A stretch of 38,836 nt of DNA from Bathymodiolus brooksi methanotrophic gill symbiont (GTDB lineage Bacteria > Pseudomonadota > Gammaproteobacteria > Methylococcales > Methylomonadaceae): positions 1 to 38,836 of the forward strand of contig JAJJBE010000096.1 in NCBI GenBank assembly GCA_020996635.1, read 5' to 3'. How positions within the stretch are numbered: position 1 is the first letter of the stretch; each line of letters starts with the position of its first letter. The notes beneath the pieces were generated by a model that was given only the letters and a program-made list of their open reading frames with translations, had not been told where the DNA came from and did not search any database. This document shows positions 786-29,164 of this stretch, in pieces. The position numbers were made by a program, and so were the translations under genes.

Positions 786-3404
786 ATGTCAGAGTTTGCT
801 AAAGAAATTACTATAGTTAATATCGAAGATGAGATGGAGCAATCCTATCTTGATTATGCGATGAGCGTTATTGTTGGTCGTGCACTCCCTGATGTTAGAG
901 ATGGATTAAAACCAGTTCATCGACGCGTTTTATATGCGATGAGTGTTTTAGGTAATGATTGGAACAAGGCTTATAAAAAATCAGCCCGTGTCGTTGGTGA
1001 TGTTATTGGTAAATATCACCCGCATGGTGATACCGCTGTTTACGATACAATCGTAAGAATGGCGCAGCCCTTTTCGTTGCGTTATATGTTAGTTGACGGG
1101 CAAGGAAACTTTGGTTCTGTTGATGGTGATTCGCCTGCTGCAATGCGTTATACCGAAGTGCGTATGGCTAAAATTGCTCATGAAATGCTGGCTGATTTAG
1201 ATAAAGAAACGGTTGATTTTGCATCAAATTATGATGAATCAGAATCTGAGCCAACTGTTTTACCTGCGCGTGTTCCAGCATTGTTAGTGAATGGTTCTTC
1301 TGGTATCGCGGTAGGTATGGCAACCAATATCCCGCCACATAACTTAGGTGAAGTCATCACCGCTTGTTTAGCCATGATTGATACACCTGATATTGAGGTG
1401 AGAGATTTAATGGAATACCTGCCTGGCCCTGATTTTCCTACAGCAGGGATTATTAATGGTATTGGCGGTATTTATGATGCTTATATGACTGGACGTGGCA
1501 AAGTTTATATTCGTGCGCGTAGTCATGTTGAAGATTACAATCAAGGCTCTCGACAAGCCATTATTGTGACGGAACTACCTTATCAAGTTAATAAAGCACG
1601 CTTATTAGAGAAAATTGCTGAATTAATTAAACTTAGCAAAATTGAAGGTATCTCTGGTTTACGTGATGAATCTGATAAAGACGGCATGCGTATGGTGATT
1701 GAATTACGTCGTGGCGAAGTACCTGAAGTTGTCTTAAATAACCTTTATAAACAAACCCAAATGCGGACAGTATTTGGTATTAATATGGTTGCCATTTTAG
1801 ATGGTCGCCCTCTATGCATGAATTTAAAGCAAATTCTGCATGCTTTTGTTAATCATCGTCGTGAGGTCGTTACCCGTCGTACGGTTTATTTATTAAGAAA
1901 AGCACGTGAACGTGCGCATGTATTGGAAGGCTTAGCGGTTGCTATGTCCAATATTGATGACATGATCACTTTAATTAAAGCAGCTGCCAATCCGGCAGAG
2001 GCGAAAAAAGGACTGTTAGAAAAAACCTGGAATGCAGGCTTAGTGGGTTCTCTCCTAGATCGTGCGGATGCAGATAGATCTCGTCCAGATGGGCTTACTT
2101 TAGAGTTTGGTATTCATGGAACTGAATATCGCTTATCTGAGGCACAAGCAAGTGCTATTTTAGATTTACGTTTGCATCGATTAACAGGTTTAGAGCAAGA
2201 TAAAATCGTTAATGAATATAAACAACTTCTTGAGTTAATTGATGGTTATTTAGCCATTTTAAATAGTGCAGTGCGCTTAATGGAAGTGATTCGTGAAGAG
2301 CTGGAAGCAATCAAAGAAGAATATGCTGACGAACGTCGCACTGAGTTGGTGGTTGATTCCTTAAGTTTATCTGAAGCTGACTTTATTACCGAAGAAGATG
2401 TGGTTGTAACGATGTCGCATGAAGGTTATGTTAAGTCGCAACGCTTAGAAGAATATCAAGCGCAACGCAGAGGTGGTCGAGGAAAATCTGCAACAGCGAC
2501 AAAAGAAGAAGATTTTGTAGAAAAATTAATTGTTGCGAATACCCATGATACGGTTTTATGTTTTTCTTCTGCGGGTAAAGTGTATTGGTTAAAAGTCTAT
2601 CAATTACCGATTGCTAGCCGTGCTTCTCGTGGTAAACCCTTTGTTAATTTATTGCCACTAGAACAAGGTGAAAAAATTAATGCCATGCTAACTGTGCGTG
2701 AATATAGTGAGTCGCAATTTATTTTTATGGCAACAGCGGCGGGAACAGTTAAGAAAACTCCACTTAAAGAGTTTGAGCGTCAGCGTAGTAATGGCAAGAT
2801 TGCCATTGATTTACGTGAAGGAGATGAATTAGTCGGTGTAGCTGTTACTGATGGCGAACGTGATATTTTATTATTCAGTAATAGCGGAAAAGTTGTTTGC
2901 TTTAATGAATCTGATGTCCGTTCTATGGGGCGTACTGCAACAGGTGTCCGTGGTATGCGTCTTAATGAAGAGCAAAAAATCATCTCTTTGATTATTTCTT
3001 CAGAAGGTTCTGTTCTGAATGTTACTGAAAATGGTTATGGTAAACGCACAAAATTAGCCGAGTTTACGCGTCATAAGCGTGGTGGGCAGGGCATGATTGC
3101 CATGCAGACTTCGGATAGAAATGGCGCCTTAGTCGGAGCTGTTTTAGTTGAAGAGCATGATGAAATAATGTTGATTACCAGTGGTGGTGTGTTAGTTCGT
3201 ACACGGGTTGATGAAATTTCTGTTATTGGACGTAACACTCAGGGAGTGAAGGTTATTCGTTTAGATGCAAAAGAAAAAGTAGTCGGTGTGGATAAAATTG
3301 ATGGTTTAGTTGATAGCGATGAGCTAGAGGAATCAGATGAAGCTACTCTTGCTGATAATGAAAGCACTAATACAGAAACAAATAATAGTAATGAGGCTGA
3401 ATAA
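786..3404 (+). CDS. gyrA: DNA gyrase subunit A
   Basis: GyrA is the breakage-reunion subunit of DNA gyrase, acting as an A2B2 enzyme with GyrB to introduce negative supercoils. The 872-residue product is close to E. coli GyrA (875). The catalytic tyrosine is Tyr122 in [10 protein letters not shown], and the resistance-determining helix reads [10 protein letters not shown] with Thr83 and Asp87. The GyrA box QRRGGRG that starts the C-terminal DNA-wrapping domain is present, and an acidic Ser/Asn/Glu-rich tail ends the protein. I chose the ATG at 786 (MSEFAKEIT) because homology begins there and GGAACGA precedes it; the frame stays open to an ATG at 741 but that extension looks untranslated. The stop overlaps the serC start by one base (TAATG), so it heads the supraoperon. 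Confidence 0.97.
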
Positions 3405-14862: not shown

Positions 14863-16272
14863 CTATAAGCTATAGTACATATCAAATTCAACAGGGTGAG
14901 TACTCATGCGTAAAAGAGTCACTTCTTCCATTTTTAATTCAATATAAGCATCAATTGCATCATTAGTAAATACACCGCCACGAGTTAGGAACTCACGGTC
15001 TTTATCTAATGCAGCTAGTGCCTCATCAAATGAAACAGCAACTTGAGGAATTAATTTTTCTTCTTCTGGTGGTAAGTCATATAGATCTTTATCCATTGCT
15101 TCACCAGGATGAATTTTGTTTTGGATACCATCAAGGCCGGCCATTAACATTGCAGCGAAGCAAAGGTAAGGGTTAGCAGTTGAATCACCAAAACGTAACT
15201 CAATACGACGGCCTTTTGGGTTGTTAACAAAAGGAATACGGATAGATGCTGAACGGTTACGAGCAGAGTAAGCAAGCATAACAGGTGCTTCAAAACCAGG
15301 TACTAAACGTTTGTAACTGTTTGTTGATGCATTTGCAAAAGCGTTAAGTGCTTTTGCATGCTTGATAATACCGCCGATGTAGAATAAAGCAGTTTCAGAT
15401 AAACCGCCGTATAAATCGCCTGAAAACAGGTTGTTACCTTCTTTAAATAAAGATTGGTGAACGTGCATACCGTTACCATTGTCACCAACAAGAGGCTTAG
15501 GCATAAAAGTAGCTGTTTTTCCGTATGCGTGAGCAATGTTAGCAACAACATATTTTAATTCTAAAACTTCATCCGCTTTTTTAACTAGCGTATTGAATTT
15601 AGTACCAATTTCACATTGTCCAGCCGTTGCAACTTCATGATGATGCACTTCAGTGACTTGTCCCATTTCTTCTAGAGCTAAGCACATTGCTGCGCGCATG
15701 TCGTGTAGAGAATCAACAGGAGGAATTGGAAAATAACCGCCTTTTACACCAGGACGGTGACCTGTATTGCCATCCTCATATGCTTTTTCTGAATTCCAGC
15801 CTGCTTCTTCAGAATCAATTTTGTAGCCGCAGCTACCCATGTCATTATTCCAACGAACATCATCAAAGACGAAAAATTCATTTTCAGGACCAAAATAAGC
15901 AGTGTCAGCAATACCTGTAGATTGCATATAAGCTTCTGCACGTTTTGCAATTGAACGTGGATCACGCTCGTAGCCTTGCATATCATTAGGCTCGATGATG
16001 TCACAACGTAAAATTAATGTATTATCATCAAAGAAAGGGTCGATAACAGCAGTCGATGCATCAGGCATCAGAATCATGTCTGATTCGTTAATTCCTTTCC
16101 AACCTGCAACAGAAGACCCGTCGAACATGTTGCCTTCTTCAAAAGTATCTTCATCGATAGAATGTGCAGGGAAAGTTACATGCTGCTCTTTTCCGCGTGT
16201 ATCACTAAAACGAAAATCAACAAATTTGATATCGTTTTCCTTAATCATTTTTAAAACGTTCTCTACTGACAT
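14863..16272 (-). CDS. glnA: Glutamine synthetase, type I
   Basis: GlnA makes glutamine from glutamate, ammonia and ATP as a dodecamer and is the main ammonia-assimilation enzyme. The 469 residues match the enteric type I-beta form. Seen are [25 protein letters not shown], the [19 protein letters not shown] nucleotide/glutamate loop, [18 protein letters not shown] and [11 protein letters not shown]. The adenylylation loop [11 protein letters not shown] near residue 398 has the target Tyr, so control by GlnE and PII is expected. A good ribosome site (AGGAGA) precedes the ATG. Upstream there are a sigma-54 promoter, an NtrC-like site and a possible sigma-70 promoter. The stop codon is TAG. Confidence 0.98.
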
Positions 16273-16501: not shown

Positions 16502-17263
16502 TTAAACAGGGTTATCGCTATCAATAAAAATACACTCAATGCTATATTCGGCTTGTATTTTTTGCATTAATGCTAATACTCCAAAAATCTCCGTGGCGTA
16601 GTGACCGCCAGCAAACATATGGATATTGTTTTCTTGGCTTTCATGCTAGTCATGCTCAGAAATTTCACCTGTAATATAGGCATCTAAGCCAGCTTCTTGG
16701 GCTAACACCCAGTCTTTATTGGCTCCTCCGGTAATAATGCCAATGGATTTAATTAACTGTGTTTCATCAGGACAAGCAATGATAATGTCATGATTGAGTA
16801 TAGATTGAAGTTTTGTACTTAGCTCTTTTGCATTTATAGGCTTTATTAAGTCTCCTTTAATACCAGTAGGAGATCCTTTGTAATTACCAAAAGCAGAGCT
16901 CTGTTGAATGCCTAAAAGTTTTCCTAAAACTGCAGCATTACCAATTTTAGGATGTGCATCAAGAGGTAAATGATAAGCAAATAAGTTAATATTATTTTGT
17001 ACTAGAGGATAGATACGTTTAGCAAAGCTATTAGTTAATGTTTTAGCACCTTGAAAATACCAAAAAAGGCCGTGGTGGACAATTAAGGTATCGGCGCCCA
17101 GTGTCACTGCTTGTTTAATAGAATCGAGCGTGGCAGAAACGGCAAAAGCAATCTTTTTAATTTCTGTCGCTCCTTCAACTTGTAAGCCGTTAGGGCAATA
17201 GTCTTTGAAATCTTGAGTTTGAAGGGTGTTTTCCAAATAACTATTTAATTCTGACCTATGCAT
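16502..17263 (-). pseudogene. NIF3/YbgI family (DUF34) metal-binding protein, interrupted by an in-frame TAG
   Basis: The family is a widespread di-metal protein, proposed GTP cyclohydrolase I type 2 or metal-linked enzyme, with no settled role. Reading from the ATG at 17263, 205 codons end in YITGEISEHD and a TAG at 16648-16646. The same frame then continues without another stop for 47 codons: HESQENNIHMFAGG, HYATEIFG, and so on to FIDSDNPV and TAA at 16504-16502. With one residue in place of the TAG the product would be 253 residues, the normal family length. The truncated form keeps the first metal ligands (IVHHGLFW) but loses the GHYATE His and Glu ligands. It is either a single-base pseudogene, an amber readthrough case or a sequencing error. 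The start overlaps the Nudix gene by 8 bases. Confidence 0.88.
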
Positions 17264-17765
17264 CAGAATAGGCCTCGAACTTTGTCCAAAGCGATTTGAA
17301 AGTTTCTGTTAAACTCGGGTCATTATTTTTTACACGTAAAGAAATGTCCTTAGTGGAAAACCACTGGCCATCATCAATCTCTTTAGCTTCTAAAATAAAA
17401 GGGCCGTTATGAGAGAAACGATAGACTTGTACAAATTCCATGCCTGTTTCTGGTAATGCAGGAAGTTTAAATAGGAACTTTAACGTTGAGTCTACACAAA
17501 CTCCTAGTTCTTCAATAGTTTCTCTATGCGCGCAAGTATCGTAACTTTCTCCCGCATCAACATGGCCTGCGGCAGAGGTATCCCATAGCCCTGCATTGAT
17601 ATCTTTATTTAATGAGCGTTTTTGTAAAAATAATTGATTTTTATCATTAAAAAGTAAAATGTGTACAGCTCTATGGCGAAGCCCAAGTTGGTGTACTTCA
17701 TTTCGTGCTTTATTTTCGATAAATTGGTCATTTTTATCGACGACAGCAATAAGTTCTTCGTTCAT
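17256..17765 (-). CDS. Nudix hydrolase, YfcD-like
   Basis: A Nudix hydrolase of 169 residues, which would cleave a nucleoside diphosphate linked to another group; the substrate is unknown. The Nudix box is complete: GHVDAGE at about residues 72-78, then RETIEELG with a 7-residue gap (SYDTCAH). The region before it (HRAVHILLFNDKNQLFLQKRS) and the overall layout resemble YfcD and isopentenyl-diphosphate isomerase-like Nudix proteins. I chose the ATG at 17765 (MNEELIAVVDKNDQF), preceded by TTGGA. The frame stays open to a GTG at 17822, but that codon lies in the arm of the inverted-repeat element. It overlaps the broken NIF3 gene by 8 bases. Confidence 0.85.
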   Translation of the reverse strand: MNEELIAVVDKNDQFIENKARNEVHQLGLRHRAVHILLFNDKNQLFLQKRSLNKDINAGLWDTSAAGHVDAGESYDTCAHRETIEELGVCVDSTLKFLFKLPALPETGMEFVQVYRFSHNGPFILEAKEIDDGQWFSTKDISLRVKNNDPSLTETFKSLWTKFEAYSDA

Positions 17766-17805
17766 AATTATCCAAGTTAAAAGGATTTTCCCTTTTGTAT
17801 TTATT

Positions 17806-17966
17806 ATACTTCGCGCGGTCACAGATGTGGATTTTATATCAAGTTGATTTTAGTCGATAGCAAGGCGATAAAATAGGCGCATAGCTGGCTACGCAACTGT
17901 TTTATCAACGCAGCTATCGGCTAAAATCGACCGATAGAAAACCGCAGTCGTGACCGCGCGAAGTAT
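17806..17966. mobile_element. Inverted-repeat element, MITE-like, 161 bp
   Basis: The ends are a perfect 17-bp inverted repeat (left 17806-17822 ATACTTCGCGCGGTCAC, right 17950-17966). The inside is also nearly self-complementary: GATTTTAG-CGATAGC pairs with GCTATCG-CTAAAATC, GATAAAATAG pairs with CTGTTTTATC, and the tip is AGGCGCATAG-CTGG-CTACGCAAC (17875-17897). There is no coding capacity. It is more G+C-rich at the ends than its surroundings. No clear target-site duplication was seen (flanks TTATT on the left, GGCTA on the right). It sits between the divergent Nudix and tetR genes and would form one very long hairpin in RNA or single-stranded DNA. Confidence 0.8.
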
Positions 17967-18005: not shown

Positions 18006-18575
18006 ATGGCAAGGCGTAGTGAGCATAGTCGTAATGAAATTAAGACGATGGTATTAGAGGCTGCTGAAAATATTGTACGTGAGCAAGGCTTTAGTGCATT
18101 AAAAATTAGGCAAATTTCAGCCGATATGGGGTATACCGTTGCCAGTGTATACATGGTTTTTGAAAATATGGATGATCTTAATACACAAATTAAAACGCGT
18201 ACCACAGAAAAGATATTGCAGGATATTACATCTGAAAAAGAGTGTTTAGCCATTGCGATAGCTTATTTTGAGTTTGTATTGAAGGAGCGTGGATTATGCC
18301 GCATGTTATTGCAGCATCAAACATTGAGAAATTTACCATCAGAAAAAGCCTATGATAGAGCACAAGCAGAATTGCAAATGTGTTTTTGTGATTCATTAAA
18401 CGTTATAAATTCAGGCTATACCGAGCTTGAAATAGATAAGGCATCAAAGGTATTGATGAGTGCTGTTCAAGGGGCGTGTCTACCTCTATTAATGCAAAAC
18501 TCAGTAGACCAAACCAGTATTAAAAATAATATCGAATTACTATTAACTTGTTTTTTGCGGGGCTGGCGGAAGTAG
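18006..18575 (+). CDS. TetR/AcrR family transcriptional regulator
   Basis: A 189-residue one-component repressor of the TetR type. The N-terminal DNA-binding domain (residues about 10-56) reads EIKTMVLEAAENIVREQGF, then ALKIRQISADMGYTVASVYMVF with the typical helix-turn-helix and YxxF end. The C-terminal ligand domain resembles the WHG/TetR_C_33-like group, and its ligand is unknown. The ribosome site GGAAG precedes the ATG. It begins 39 bases past the inverted-repeat element, which could therefore hold its promoter or operator. The stop is TAG TAG. The last 33 bases overlap the 3' end of lplT on the other strand. Confidence 0.88.
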   Translation: MARRSEHSRNEIKTMVLEAAENIVREQGFSALKIRQISADMGYTVASVYMVFENMDDLNTQIKTRTTEKILQDITSEKECLAIAIAYFEFVLKERGLCRMLLQHQTLRNLPSEKAYDRAQAELQMCFCDSLNVINSGYTELEIDKASKVLMSAVQGACLPLLMQNSVDQTSIKNNIELLLTCFLRGWRK

Positions 18576-23456: not shown

Positions 23457-23828
23457 ATGAGTAATGCTTATACTGATAGTGAAGTAAATCAACGTTTAGC
23501 TGATGAGTTACCACATTGGACTTATGAAAAAGGCTGGATTCGTCGCAAGATAAAAACCAGTAGTTGGAAGTCGACATTGATGGTAGTTAACACCGTGGGG
23601 CATCTTGCAGAGGCCGCATGGCATCACCCTGATATGACTATTTCATATGCTTTTGTTATCGTTAAATTAGTAACGCACTCAGCAAAAGGCATTACTGACA
23701 AAGATTTTGAGTTGGCCAAAAAAATTGAAGAAGTAGTTATGTGGGATGCCGCAGAGACATCAAAAGGTGTTTTTGAAGGTACACCAGAAGATCCACGATT
23801 TAAATATATTAAGAGGGAAAGCAAGTGA
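23457..23828 (+). CDS. Pterin-4a-carbinolamine dehydratase family protein
   Basis: A 123-residue member of the PCD/DCoH/PhhB family, which dehydrates 4a-hydroxy-tetrahydropterin. The family signature is intact: EAAWHHPDMTISY, a spaced His in VTHSAKG, and an Asp in ITDKD. No phenylalanine hydroxylase gene is nearby. The gene abuts fhcB (GTGA overlap), so a role with tetrahydromethanopterin rather than tetrahydrobiopterin is likely; PCD homologues are known in methylotroph methanopterin gene islands. A ribosome site (AGAAGGT) precedes the ATG. The specific reaction here is inferred. Confidence 0.85.
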   Translation: MSNAYTDSEVNQRLADELPHWTYEKGWIRRKIKTSSWKSTLMVVNTVGHLAEAAWHHPDMTISYAFVIVKLVTHSAKGITDKDFELAKKIEEVVMWDAAETSKGVFEGTPEDPRFKYIKRESK

Positions 23829-25084
23829 CCGAAATAACGGAAGTACCCAGTCCTTTTTGTGGAATAGGTGCAGATGATTTAAGCGTTCAGGTTGATGGTA
23901 ACTCTGTAAAAGTTACGGCGAATGGTTGTACTGTAAATACGCCAGCATTTGAGCAGTCGATTACCGACACCAGCGCAAGAGTCAATGGCGAAGAAGTTAG
24001 TTTAGGCCTTGCTATTGCTAAAGCAGCTGATTTATTACGTGCTAGCAATCAGCCGATTATGGGTGGATGTGCGTCCGATGTGAACGGTATGCGTGGTGTA
24101 ATGGCGGTTGCTGATAAAGCAGGTGCTGTTGTCGATAATATGAATTTTACGGGCGCACGACGTAATTTCTTAGCATTACAAGATACCGGTTGGATGAATA
24201 CAACTTTAGCGGAAATTAAAAACCGCTGTGATTATTTGTTAGTTGTCGGGGTTGACTTAGAAGGCTTTTCACCACGATTCTTTGAGCGCTATTTATGGAA
24301 CAAAGAATCGATGTTCCTAGATGATACAAGTAATAGGGAAATCGTCTATTTAGGTAAAGCACCTTCTGGTAATGCTTCTACTTCTCCGGCAGGCGTTAGT
24401 GCAAAAGTTTTAGAGTGTGCTGACGCAAATTTACCTGAAGTAATGGCTGTGTTACGCGCACTTGTTAAAAATAAAAAGATTGTTGCTGAATCAGTTTGTG
24501 GAATTGCAGTTAGTGAATTACAAACCATTGCAGAACAATTAAAAGCGACTAAATATAGTGTTGTTACTTGGGCAGCTGGTGCTCTTAATTTTGACCAAGC
24601 AGAGTTAACCGTGCAGATGTTATCGGAAATGGTAAAAGATTTAAACACTGTGGATACGCGTAGTTCTGGCTTTCCTTTAGGGGGAAAAGAGGGCGATCAA
24701 ACCGCGAACCAAGTCTGTGGTTGGATATCTGCTTATCCAGCAAGAGCTAAGTTTTCAGCAGGCTACCCAGAGTATGATCCTTTCTTATTTGATAGTGCAG
24801 TCATGCTAGAGAATGGTGAAGCAGATGCTTTATGTTGGGTACAAGCCTTTAATATCGCTTCCGTGCCACCTAAAACAGATGTACCAACGATTGTTGTTGC
24901 GCGCTCAGGAATGGTTTTTGATAAAGAGCCTGATGTCTTTATACCGGTAGGAACGCCTGGGATCGATCATGCGGGTCATGCTTATCGTTTAGATAGTGTT
25001 GTGGCGATTCGTCTTAAAAAATTACGTCATTCAGGGCTGCCAAGTACGGCAGAGGTACTGAATGCAATTGAACAAGCGCTGTAG
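23825..25084 (+). CDS. fhcB: Formyltransferase/hydrolase complex subunit B (FhcB)
   Basis: FhcB is the subunit of the bacterial formyltransferase/hydrolase complex related to archaeal formylmethanofuran dehydrogenase subunit B. The complex hydrolyses formyl groups from the tetrahydromethanopterin pathway to formate. In 419 residues the molybdopterin-oxidoreductase fold is recognisable (CDYLLVVGVDLEGFSP, TRSSGFPLGGKEGDQTANQV, PGIDHAGHAYRLDSVV). The N-terminus reads PFCGIGADDL, so the iron-sulphur CxxCxxxC cysteines of the archaeal enzyme are missing, which is expected for the bacterial non-redox version. The start is GTG at 23825, overlapping the upstream stop (GTGA). The stop is TAG. Confidence 0.93.
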   Translation: MTEITEVPSPFCGIGADDLSVQVDGNSVKVTANGCTVNTPAFEQSITDTSARVNGEEVSLGLAIAKAADLLRASNQPIMGGCASDVNGMRGVMAVADKAGAVVDNMNFTGARRNFLALQDTGWMNTTLAEIKNRCDYLLVVGVDLEGFSPRFFERYLWNKESMFLDDTSNREIVYLGKAPSGNASTSPAGVSAKVLECADANLPEVMAVLRALVKNKKIVAESVCGIAVSELQTIAEQLKATKYSVVTWAAGALNFDQAELTVQMLSEMVKDLNTVDTRSSGFPLGGKEGDQTANQVCGWISAYPARAKFSAGYPEYDPFLFDSAVMLENGEADALCWVQAFNIASVPPKTDVPTIVVARSGMVFDKEPDVFIPVGTPGIDHAGHAYRLDSVVAIRLKKLRHSGLPSTAEVLNAIEQAL

Positions 25085-25093
25085 GGAATATTC

Positions 25094-26758
25094 ATGTTAA
25101 TAAAACTAACGGGCGGAACGGTTTATGATCCTGCCAGTGGTATCGATGGTCAGGTTAAAACTCTTTTTGTTTTAGATGGTAAATTTATTAATCAGCCGCC
25201 AGCTGAGATGCCTATCGACAAAGAGTACGATTTAAAAGGTAAAGTGGTTATGGCGGGTGCTATTGATATGCATACGCATATTGGTGGTGGTAAAGGTAAT
25301 ATTGCCCGTATGCTGATACCTGAAGACCATCGTAAAGACCCTGTTTATCGCTCAGATATTACGCGATCAGGCTGTGGTCATGCAATGCCTAGTTCATTTA
25401 CAGCAGGCTATCGATACGCTGAGATGGGGTATACAGCGGGTTTTGAGCCCGCTATTTTGCCAGTTAATGCACGTCAAGCGCACATGGAAATGGCAGATAT
25501 TCCCATCTTAGATAAAGGTGGTTATGTGATGTTAGGTAGTGATGATTATTTACTACGTATGCTAACGGCTAAAAAAGACCAAAAAGCAATCAATGACTAT
25601 GTTGCATGGACAATGAATGCAGCAAAAGCAATTGGCGTAAAAGTGGTTAACCCAGGTGGGATTAATGCTTTTAAATTTAATCAGCGTCAGCTAGACCTAG
25701 ATGAAAAAAATGCACATTACAATGTAACACCGCGTGAGATATTACAAGTTCTTGCAACGGCAGTTAAAGAGATTGGTGTTAAACATCCATTGCACGTACA
25801 TGGTTGTAACCTTGGTGTACCGGGTAATGTAGAAACAACCATTGATACCATGCAAGGTATTGGTGGCTTACCCATGCATTTAACGCATATTCAATTTCAT
25901 AGTTATGGTACGGAAGGGGATTTTAAATTTTCTTCAGGTGGAGCGGCAATTGCTGAAGCCATCAATAAAAATAAAAATATTACTGCAGATGTAGGTCAGA
26001 TTTTATTTGGCCAAACCATTACGGCATCGGGTGATAATATGCGTCAGCATGCAAACCATGGCTTTGCAAACCCTAATAAATGGGTCTGTATGGATATTGA
26101 GTGTGATGCAGGTTGTGGTGTTGTGCCATTTAAGTATCGTGATCAAAACTTTGTTAATGCGCTGCAATGGGCGATTGGCTTAGAGATTTTCTTATTGGTA
26201 GATGATCCTTGGTGTGTATTCTTAACGACGGATCATCCAAATGGTGCGCCTTTTACCACTTACCCGCATTTAATTCGTTTATTAATGGATAAGAGTTTTC
26301 GTAACGATATGTTAGCGACTATACATCCAGAAGCGCAAAAAATGACTACATTAGCCTCGATTGACCGCGAGTATTCATTACAAGAAATTGCGATTTTAAC
26401 ACGAGCAGGTGCGGCTAAATTAATTGGTTTAGATGATCGAGGTAGTTTAGGTGAAGGTGCATGGGCAGATATTACGGTTTACACCGAAAATACTGATCGG
26501 GAAAAAATGTTTGAAAAACCTGATTATGTCTTTAAAGACGGTGAATTAGTGGTTGTTGATGGAAAGGTCGTACATACAACATGGGGTACAACTCATATTG
26601 TTACACCTGAGTGGGATAACTCGGTAGAAAAAAGTTTGGAAAAATACTTTGATCGTTTTATGACCATGAAATTGGGTAATTTCAAAATGAGCAATGATGA
26701 AATTACTGAAGATGGCCGAGGCAGTTTAACGGCGCATTCATTAAATAGCATTTCATAG
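25094..26758 (+). CDS. fhcA: Formyltransferase/hydrolase complex subunit A (FhcA)
   Basis: FhcA is the amidohydrolase-fold subunit that hydrolyses the formylated methanofuran-type carrier to formate. The 554-residue length is typical. Metal and active-site regions are visible: AIDMHTHIGGGKGN, LHVHGCNLGVPGN, LTHIQFHSYG and FLTTDHPNGAPF. The N-terminal KLTGGTVYDPASG and the end AGAAKLIGLDDRGSLGEGAWADI fit the urease/dihydroorotase-like shell. It follows fhcB by 9 bases in the usual B-A-D-C order. The stop is TAG. Confidence 0.96.
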   Translation: MLIKLTGGTVYDPASGIDGQVKTLFVLDGKFINQPPAEMPIDKEYDLKGKVVMAGAIDMHTHIGGGKGNIARMLIPEDHRKDPVYRSDITRSGCGHAMPSSFTAGYRYAEMGYTAGFEPAILPVNARQAHMEMADIPILDKGGYVMLGSDDYLLRMLTAKKDQKAINDYVAWTMNAAKAIGVKVVNPGGINAFKFNQRQLDLDEKNAHYNVTPREILQVLATAVKEIGVKHPLHVHGCNLGVPGNVETTIDTMQGIGGLPMHLTHIQFHSYGTEGDFKFSSGGAAIAEAINKNKNITADVGQILFGQTITASGDNMRQHANHGFANPNKWVCMDIECDAGCGVVPFKYRDQNFVNALQWAIGLEIFLLVDDPWCVFLTTDHPNGAPFTTYPHLIRLLMDKSFRNDMLATIHPEAQKMTTLASIDREYSLQEIAILTRAGAAKLIGLDDRGSLGEGAWADITVYTENTDREKMFEKPDYVFKDGELVVVDGKVVHTTWGTTHIVTPEWDNSVEKSLEKYFDRFMTMKLGNFKMSNDEITEDGRGSLTAHSLNSIS

Positions 26759-26792: not shown

Positions 26793-27689
26793 ATGATTAT
26801 TAATGGTGTAAGCATTGATGAAACCTTCGCCGAAGCGTTTCCAATGAAAGCAACCCGTGCAATTATTACCGCACAAAATGAAAAATGGGCAATGATTTCT
26901 GCGCAAGCGATGACAGGTTTTGCAACCTCAGTGATTGCTTGTGGTTGTGAAGCAGGAATTGAGAAAGTGCTTGATCCATCCGAAACTCCAGATGGGCGAC
27001 CGGGTGTTTCGGTATTGATTTTTGCAATGGGTGGCAAAGGCTTAGCAAAGCAATTGGAAACACGTGCAGGACAATGTGTTTTAACCTCACCAACATCTGC
27101 TTTATTTGCGGGGATTGATGAAGGCCTACAAATTCCACTAGGTAAAAATTTACGTTATTTCGGTGATGGCTTTCAAACCTCTAAAAAGATTAATGGCAAA
27201 CGTTACTGGCGTATACCTGTCATGGATGGTGAATTTTTAACCGAAGCAACAACAGGACGTGTTGATGCGGTTGGTGGTGGTAACTTTTTAGTGTTAGCCA
27301 AATCACAACCACAAGCTTTAGCAGCGTGTGAAGCGGCTATTGTAGAAATGAAAAAATTACCCAATGTGATTATGCCATTTCCGGGTGGTATTGTACGTTC
27401 AGGTTCTAAAGTTGGCTCAAAATACCCCGCTTTAGGTGCCTCAAGTAATGATGCTTTTTGCCCGACCTTAAAAGGTATCACTAAAACTGATTTACCGCCT
27501 GAGTGTGAATCGGTTATGGAAATCGTAATTGATGGTTTAACGAAAGAAGATATAGATAAAGCCATGCGTGTTGGTATTCAAGCGGTTTGTGATTTAGGGG
27601 CTGAAAATGGTATCCAACGTATTAGCGCCGGAAATTATGGCGGTAAATTAGGGCCATTCCATTTCCACCTACAGGAGATTATGGCATGA
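26793..27689 (+). CDS. fhcD: Formylmethanofuran:tetrahydromethanopterin formyltransferase (FhcD/Ftr)
   Basis: This subunit moves the formyl group from formyl-tetrahydromethanopterin to the methanofuran analogue. The 298-residue protein matches Ftr throughout: MIINGVSIDETFAEAFPMKATR at the start, TSPTSALFAGI, PVMDGEFLTE, FPGGIVRSGSKVGSKYP and ISAGNYGGKLGPFHFHL at the end. It is preceded by a 34-base gap and overlaps fhcC by 4 bases (ATGA). Its presence is a strong marker of methanopterin-linked C1 metabolism. Confidence 0.97.
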   Translation: MIINGVSIDETFAEAFPMKATRAIITAQNEKWAMISAQAMTGFATSVIACGCEAGIEKVLDPSETPDGRPGVSVLIFAMGGKGLAKQLETRAGQCVLTSPTSALFAGIDEGLQIPLGKNLRYFGDGFQTSKKINGKRYWRIPVMDGEFLTEATTGRVDAVGGGNFLVLAKSQPQALAACEAAIVEMKKLPNVIMPFPGGIVRSGSKVGSKYPALGASSNDAFCPTLKGITKTDLPPECESVMEIVIDGLTKEDIDKAMRVGIQAVCDLGAENGIQRISAGNYGGKLGPFHFHLQEIMA

Positions 27690-28498
27690 GTGCATTAACT
27701 TTTACTGCTATAAAAACCACTGAGCAACGTGTTGATATGTCGCCACTGGTATGCCATTTATTAAAAGATTTATCGGTAGCAGAAATTGCTGCGATTGAAT
27801 TACAAAATGGTAAACGTAAAATTCGTGTTGATGAGTTATTTGAAATTTCTGGCGATGATGCACAAAATATCCTTATAAAAAATAGCTACGCTAAACTAGA
27901 TTTTATTGCCAAAGAACTACACGATGGTGTTATGACTGTCGAAGGTGAAATCGGTGCTTATTTTGGAATGAGCATGAAATCTGGTGAGTTAACTGCAAAG
28001 GGTAATGTTGGTTTATATGCCGCTTGTGAAATGAAAAATGGTCTATTAACTATTAATGGTAATGCAGGTGACTTTTTAGGTGCAGCATTACCTGGTAATA
28101 AACAAGGCATGAAAGGCGGCACGATTTTAGTAAAAGGTAATGTTGGCCAGCGATCTGGCGACCACATGCGCCGAGGTAATATACTGATTGAAGGCAATGC
28201 TGGCGACTATTGTGGATCACGTATGATTGCGGGAACTATTGCTGTTATGGGCACAACAGGCCGATTTTTAGGTTATGCAATGCAGCGTGGTACTTTGTTG
28301 TTATGGAAAAAACCTACATTATCAGCAGCATTTAACGATTGTGGTTCACATACTTTAGCTTTTTTACCGATTTTATTTAAATCTTTTAAAAAATTAGATT
28401 CTAAATTTGCCGAAGAGTCTGCTGCTTTTAATCGTGTTCAGCGTTATGGCGGTGATATGGCTGAAAAAGGTCGTGCTGAGGTTTTAGTTAAACTATAG
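27686..28498 (+). CDS. fhcC: Formyltransferase/hydrolase complex subunit C (FhcC)
   Basis: The structural subunit of the complex, 270 residues, related to the C-terminal beta-helix domain of glutamate synthase. Repeats of the form G-x-x-G-x-x-x-G are visible across residues about 75-210 (VEGEIGAYFGMSMKSGE, TAKGNVGLYAACEMKNG, NGNAGDFLGAALPG, VKGNVGQRSGDHMRRG, EGNAGDYCGSRMIAG). It overlaps fhcD by 4 bases and ends the fhc set. A perfect 11-bp stem-loop follows before ribA. Confidence 0.95.
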   Translation: MSALTFTAIKTTEQRVDMSPLVCHLLKDLSVAEIAAIELQNGKRKIRVDELFEISGDDAQNILIKNSYAKLDFIAKELHDGVMTVEGEIGAYFGMSMKSGELTAKGNVGLYAACEMKNGLLTINGNAGDFLGAALPGNKQGMKGGTILVKGNVGQRSGDHMRRGNILIEGNAGDYCGSRMIAGTIAVMGTTGRFLGYAMQRGTLLLWKKPTLSAAFNDCGSHTLAFLPILFKSFKKLDSKFAEESAAFNRVQRYGGDMAEKGRAEVLVKL

Positions 28499-28564: not shown

Positions 28565-29164
28565 TTGACAGTTAGCATTAACAATTTAGTACAAACACGT
28601 ATTCCTACAAAATACGGTGAATTTGTATTGCACTATTTTAGCAATACTCAAGATAATAAAGAGCATGTCGCTTTTGTTTTTGGGGATGTTAAGAATAAAG
28701 AAGCTGTACCCGTACGTTTACATTCTGAATGTTTTACTGGCGATGTGTTTGGTTCACGTCGTTGTGATTGTGGCGAACAATTAGATACGGCTCTAAAAAT
28801 GATTAGTGAGCATGGTTTTGGTGTTTTATTGTATTTACGTCAAGAAGGGCGTGGAATAGGTTTGTTAAAAAAAATGCAGGCCTATAATTTACAAGATGGA
28901 GGTATGGATACAGTGGATGCTAATATTCATTTAGGGCATTTGCCTGATGAGCGTGAATATACCATTGCCGCATTGATGCTAAAAAGTTTTCAAATAAAAT
29001 CAATTCAATTAATTACTAATAATCCTGATAAACTTGAACAGTTAAAAGCATTGGATATTGTAGTAACACAACGACTAGCAATAGAAGTTGATTCGAATTC
29101 TGATAACCGTAGTTATCTACAAACTAAAGTCGATAAAATGGATCATAAGTTTAAAAAACTTTAG
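28565..29164 (+). CDS. ribA: GTP cyclohydrolase II
   Basis: RibA opens GTP to the first pyrimidine intermediate of riboflavin synthesis. The 199 residues match the stand-alone form. The zinc site is CFTGDVFGSRRCDCGEQL, and YLRQEGRGIGLLKKMQAYNLQ and the end ITNNPDKLEQL are typical. The start is TTG at 28565, chosen because homology (VQTRIPTKYGEF) begins about 8 residues later and no ATG lies in frame; an AGG lies 11 bases upstream. It is in the same direction as fhc, separated by a stem-loop. The stop is TAG. Confidence 0.93.
   Translation: MTVSINNLVQTRIPTKYGEFVLHYFSNTQDNKEHVAFVFGDVKNKEAVPVRLHSECFTGDVFGSRRCDCGEQLDTALKMISEHGFGVLLYLRQEGRGIGLLKKMQAYNLQDGGMDTVDANIHLGHLPDEREYTIAALMLKSFQIKSIQLITNNPDKLEQLKALDIVVTQRLAIEVDSNSDNRSYLQTKVDKMDHKFKKL

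Follow-up and report, generated by a model that had tools for sequence, protein, structure and literature searches.

A single in-frame amber codon in the NIF3/YbgI gene of a methanotrophic mussel symbiont is most probably an ordinary, recent nonsense mutation

The window, i.e., the whole stretch of 38,836 nucleotides analyzed from the Bathymodiolus brooksi methanotrophic gill symbiont, carries a NIF3/YbgI gene on its reverse strand at positions 16502–17263. The frame was translated over 254 codons, of which the final one is a normal stop. Its sole internal stop is a TAG at codon 206. A NUDIX hydrolase gene lies upstream and glnA lies beyond NIF3, and the NUDIX–NIF3 stretch is collinear in all nine relatives compared. 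The coordinates of the features are listed in Table 1.

Table 1. Features of the NIF3/YbgI locus, with positions in the window.
Feature	Position	Strand	Evidence
NIF3/YbgI frame ahead of the stop, codons 1–205	16649..17263	-	TIGR00486 127.3 bits alone; aligns with 1NMO
In-frame TAG, codon 206 of 253	16646..16648	-	TGG (Trp) in 35/35 Methylococcales loci aligned
Codons 207–253, conserved C-terminal part with HxxxE motif	16505..16645	-	79–85% identity to four same-genus relatives; 14 columns invariant in relatives
His221 codon, putative metal ligand	16601..16603	-	Aligned with YbgI His215; HxxxE motif (PMC8469502)
Glu225 codon, putative metal ligand	16589..16591	-	Aligned with YbgI Glu219; cf. 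SA1388 glutamate coordinating both metals (PMC1779786)
Terminal stop of the full-length frame, normal	16502..16504	-	Translation
NUDIX hydrolase gene, upstream; 8-base overlap with NIF3 start	17256..17822	-	Adjoins NIF3 in relatives examined

When the TAG is read through, the frame matches the Pfam model PF01784 with 224 bits over the whole model (1–256 of 256). The match spans the TAG, which is counted inside it as one in-frame stop. The read-through protein also passes the NCBIfam model TIGR00486, with 171.1 bits against a cut-off of 130.55, while the truncated protein of 205 residues falls slightly under this cut-off. By sequence, the closest solved structure is that of Escherichia coli YbgI (PDB 1NMO), and the alignment covers residues 2–252. 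The read-through frame is therefore a full-length, above-cut-off member of the DUF34/NIF3 (YbgI) family, and it encodes the N-terminal His pair, the HLPLDAH segment, and the C-terminal HxxxE motif. What sets it apart from the family is the TAG ahead of HxxxE, owing to which translation is predicted to yield a fragment of 205 residues. The sequence-only reading of this DNA had described a NIF3/YbgI gene with one amber codon followed by 47 open codons that encode a conserved end. Translation and the PF01784 match bear out this description, and the identity of these 47 codons to the relatives (Table 1) indicates homology rather than a chance open frame.

The codon replaced by TAG can be read from the relatives. 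The 35 aligned Methylococcales loci (34 distinct, since L035 and L008 are the same contig) have the residue context GE(I/M)SEHDWH, in which the Trp corresponds to codon 206. Outside this order, the equivalent residue is Tyr in two Bacteriovorax-type genomes and Ile in E. coli YbgI. Tyr, Phe, or Gln had been expected at this position from the sequence alone; the relatives instead have Trp, and a single G-to-A transition converts TGG to TAG in a codon that is otherwise invariant among the Methylococcales loci aligned. None of the relatives compared has a NIF3 with the same stop or a short protein ending at that point; such a short protein would have spoken against the earlier claim. Indeed, among the 57 NIF3 carriers of the methanotroph family, only the gene at 16502–17263 has an internal stop. 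A one-step change from sense to stop in a gene that is intact in relatives is what is seen in a nonsense pseudogene.

The nearest named relatives are Methyloprofundus metagenome-assembled genomes and a methanotrophic Bathymodiolus endosymbiont. The closest among the genomes compared, G017, is syntenic across the locus with about 79–89% DNA identity, and its intact NIF3 encodes a protein 80% identical to the read-through product. The codons flanking the TAG match those of G017 almost exactly, and in the 14 kb compared with this genome the aligned parts of 12 other ORFs are free of stops. The source genome (2.43 Mb) is a draft of 268 contigs, for which completeness is given as 100% and contamination as 0.02%. 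The age of the change was judged from codon-position differences and branch counts. Differences from G017 are distributed alike over codon positions on either side of the stop, and the amino-acid changes on the source branch and on that of G017 number 7 versus 15 before the stop and 3 versus 1 after it. Thus, the source branch shows no excess of change of the kind that relaxed constraint would leave in a pseudogene, which implies that the stop is young, that it is an error, or that it is tolerated through readthrough.

The part of the protein lost past the TAG holds 14 columns that are invariant in relatives, including His221 and Glu225, so the translated product would lack the complete set of metal ligands, as had been claimed from the sequence alone. 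The homologue SA1388 has both of its metal ions coordinated by a single glutamate, Glu329 (PMC1779786); we read this residue as the HxxxE glutamate. Since the HxxxE ligands lie past the TAG, the predicted 205-residue fragment should be unable to form the metal site and should be non-functional.

TAG is an ordinary stop in this organism. It terminates 30 of the 134 long ORFs in the approximately 282 kb of the genome sampled and 11 of the 39 ORFs listed in the window, NIF3 counted in. The TAG-ended ORFs include 14863–16272 (glnA), 18006–18575, 23825–25084, 25094–26758, 27686–28498, and 28565–29164, in agreement with the earlier statement that neighboring genes, among them glnA, use TAG as a normal stop. 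Release factor 1 (RF1) is intact. Genome-wide recoding of TAG, already excluded by the sequence-only reading, is rejected because RF1 is intact and TAG is a common stop. The search for an amber suppressor tRNA that it had suggested gave no UAG-reading tRNA among the 36 tRNA genes typed, a list that may be incomplete, as 150 of 177 candidates were scored and tRNA-Ser(TGA) was not seen; the one tRNA-Trp has the anticodon CCA. A pattern search for CTA-anticodon tRNAs gave 6 matches versus 11 in the reversed control, and the two matches inside tRNA genes belong to tRNA-Arg(TCT) and tRNA-Glu(TTC). No match to PylS exceeded the cut-off. Neither a CUA-anticodon tRNA nor PylS, the marks of amber suppression and pyrrolysine use, was therefore found in these searches.

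No second stop-split gene was found in the approximately 282 kb sampled. The screen comprised 27 same-frame coding pairs, of which ten were scanned against NCBIfam and the rest were judged by their junctions only. Nine of the ten scanned pairs cover two different proteins, and in the remaining pair (L161) pdxJ is intact and the short ORF after it has no match. Likewise, in-frame stops are absent from all 32 ABC-transporter matches of the source genome.

NIF3 is present in 42 of the 173 good-quality genomes of the methanotroph family and absent from the other 131. Broken copies occur elsewhere. In G193, another member of the family (L178, G193:C1:3705900-3710400, 846–3310), some 2.5 kb of inserted DNA interrupts the gene near residue 88. 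The insert encodes an integrase-like protein and a transposase-like one and is, as judged by eye, possibly of the IS91 type. The remnant in G089, which also belongs to the family (L179, G089:C5:11800-14300, 1012–1503), lacks the N-terminal part and has at least two frameshifts. A class-wide draw of 369 genomes yielded at least one further nonsense-broken NIF3, with two in-frame stops, in G444 (L177, G444:C1:1860500-1862800, 789–1523), a less closely related gammaproteobacterium whose genome is one contig of 2.2 Mb. DUF34 genes are generally non-essential, E. coli ybgI included (PMC8469502). Given these absences, the broken copies, and the non-essential ybgI, NIF3 is dispensable in the methanotroph family. 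The distribution of NIF3/DUF34 is nevertheless uneven: patchy family-wide, the gene is kept intact by nearly all well-covered genomes of one genus, that of the source genome.

Taken together, these results make it probable that the dispensable NIF3 of this locus has been hit by a nonsense mutation of an ordinary kind, which appears to be recent. A G-to-A transition would have turned the TGG of Trp206 into TAG in this Methyloprofundus-group methanotroph, where the new allele may be fixed or may still be segregating. RF1 would end translation normally at codon 206, the resulting fragment of 205 residues would lack both the terminal portion of the fold and the HxxxE metal ligands, and the bacterium would tolerate the loss because NIF3 is dispensable in its family. 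The TAG, the TGG of relatives, the intact codons past the stop, and the failure of the searches to reveal a decoding system are observations, from which we infer a genuine, recent mutation with a non-functional product. Like other bacterial nonsense pseudogenes, including the NIF3 of G444, this is a conserved gene cut by point mutation and lost by relatives; unlike them, it has so far a single lesion and no further decay. This absence of decay past the stop counts against a nonsense mutation, as it is explained equally well by an error or by functional readthrough. The lack of other stop-split genes, which shows that the sampled genome is not pseudogene-rich, and the intact copies that almost every well-covered genome of the same genus keeps count against it as well. 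A sequencing, assembly, or consensus error, with TGG in the cells and an intact gene, is an unlikely but serious alternative, which one wrong base within an otherwise perfectly conserved gene of a 268-contig draft would satisfy; the clean stop-split screen and the 12 intact ORFs in the comparison with G017 are also in its favor. However, stops can arise at few sites, which a random error in one base would be unlikely to strike, and G-to-A transitions are the commonest kind of real mutation.

Functional readthrough and recoding are, even together, improbable. As in amber readthrough, suppression, or pyrrolysine systems, a TAG is followed by a conserved coding stretch; unlike in those systems, no machinery was found, the TAG is unconserved, and TAG is an ordinary stop in the sample. 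Most of what small probability there is falls to near-cognate readthrough of UAG at a level that gives enough full-length NIF3. The codons past the stop are as conserved as those before it, and homologues with Trp, Tyr, Gln, Ala, or Ile at this position suggest that several inserted residues could be tolerated. The 86 nt past the stop also fold somewhat better than shuffled sequences (z −2.1, 7/200), but the wider segment around the stop does not (z −0.29), and folds of almost the same strength occur there in some of the TGG-bearing relatives; a readthrough-promoting RNA structure is thus weak at best. Moreover, conserved programmed readthrough would combine a shared stop with a conserved extension, and here the stop occurs in no relative, so nothing indicates that readthrough has been maintained. 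Hardly any weight is left for a dedicated decoding system (suppressor tRNA or pyrrolysine) or for A-to-I editing of UAG to UGG. Editing would give back exactly the conserved Trp, yet the site is UAGC, not the UACG loop that is the known context of bacterial TadA editing, and it lies outside any anticodon-like hairpin in the predicted fold; a dedicated system is opposed by the tRNA, CTA-pattern, and PylS searches. That the TAG is usefully read through, by near-cognate decoding or by editing to Trp, and that readthrough sets the amount of NIF3 in one species, is slighter still than near-cognate readthrough as such. Of the three options that the sequence-only reading had left, a fresh nonsense mutation is therefore favored over local readthrough and a suppressor tRNA, given that no machinery was found, the stop is unshared, no RNA fold is persuasive, and the gene is often lost. 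An error in the sequence, at which that reading had no more than hinted, is the less likely alternative.

For annotation, the NIF3 gene at 16502–17263 should be flagged as probably a pseudogene rather than entered as an intact, shorter protein. If the TAG is an ordinary nonsense mutation, it carries little weight in itself, and would be another sign of the dispensability and repeated loss of NIF3/DUF34 in the methanotroph family.
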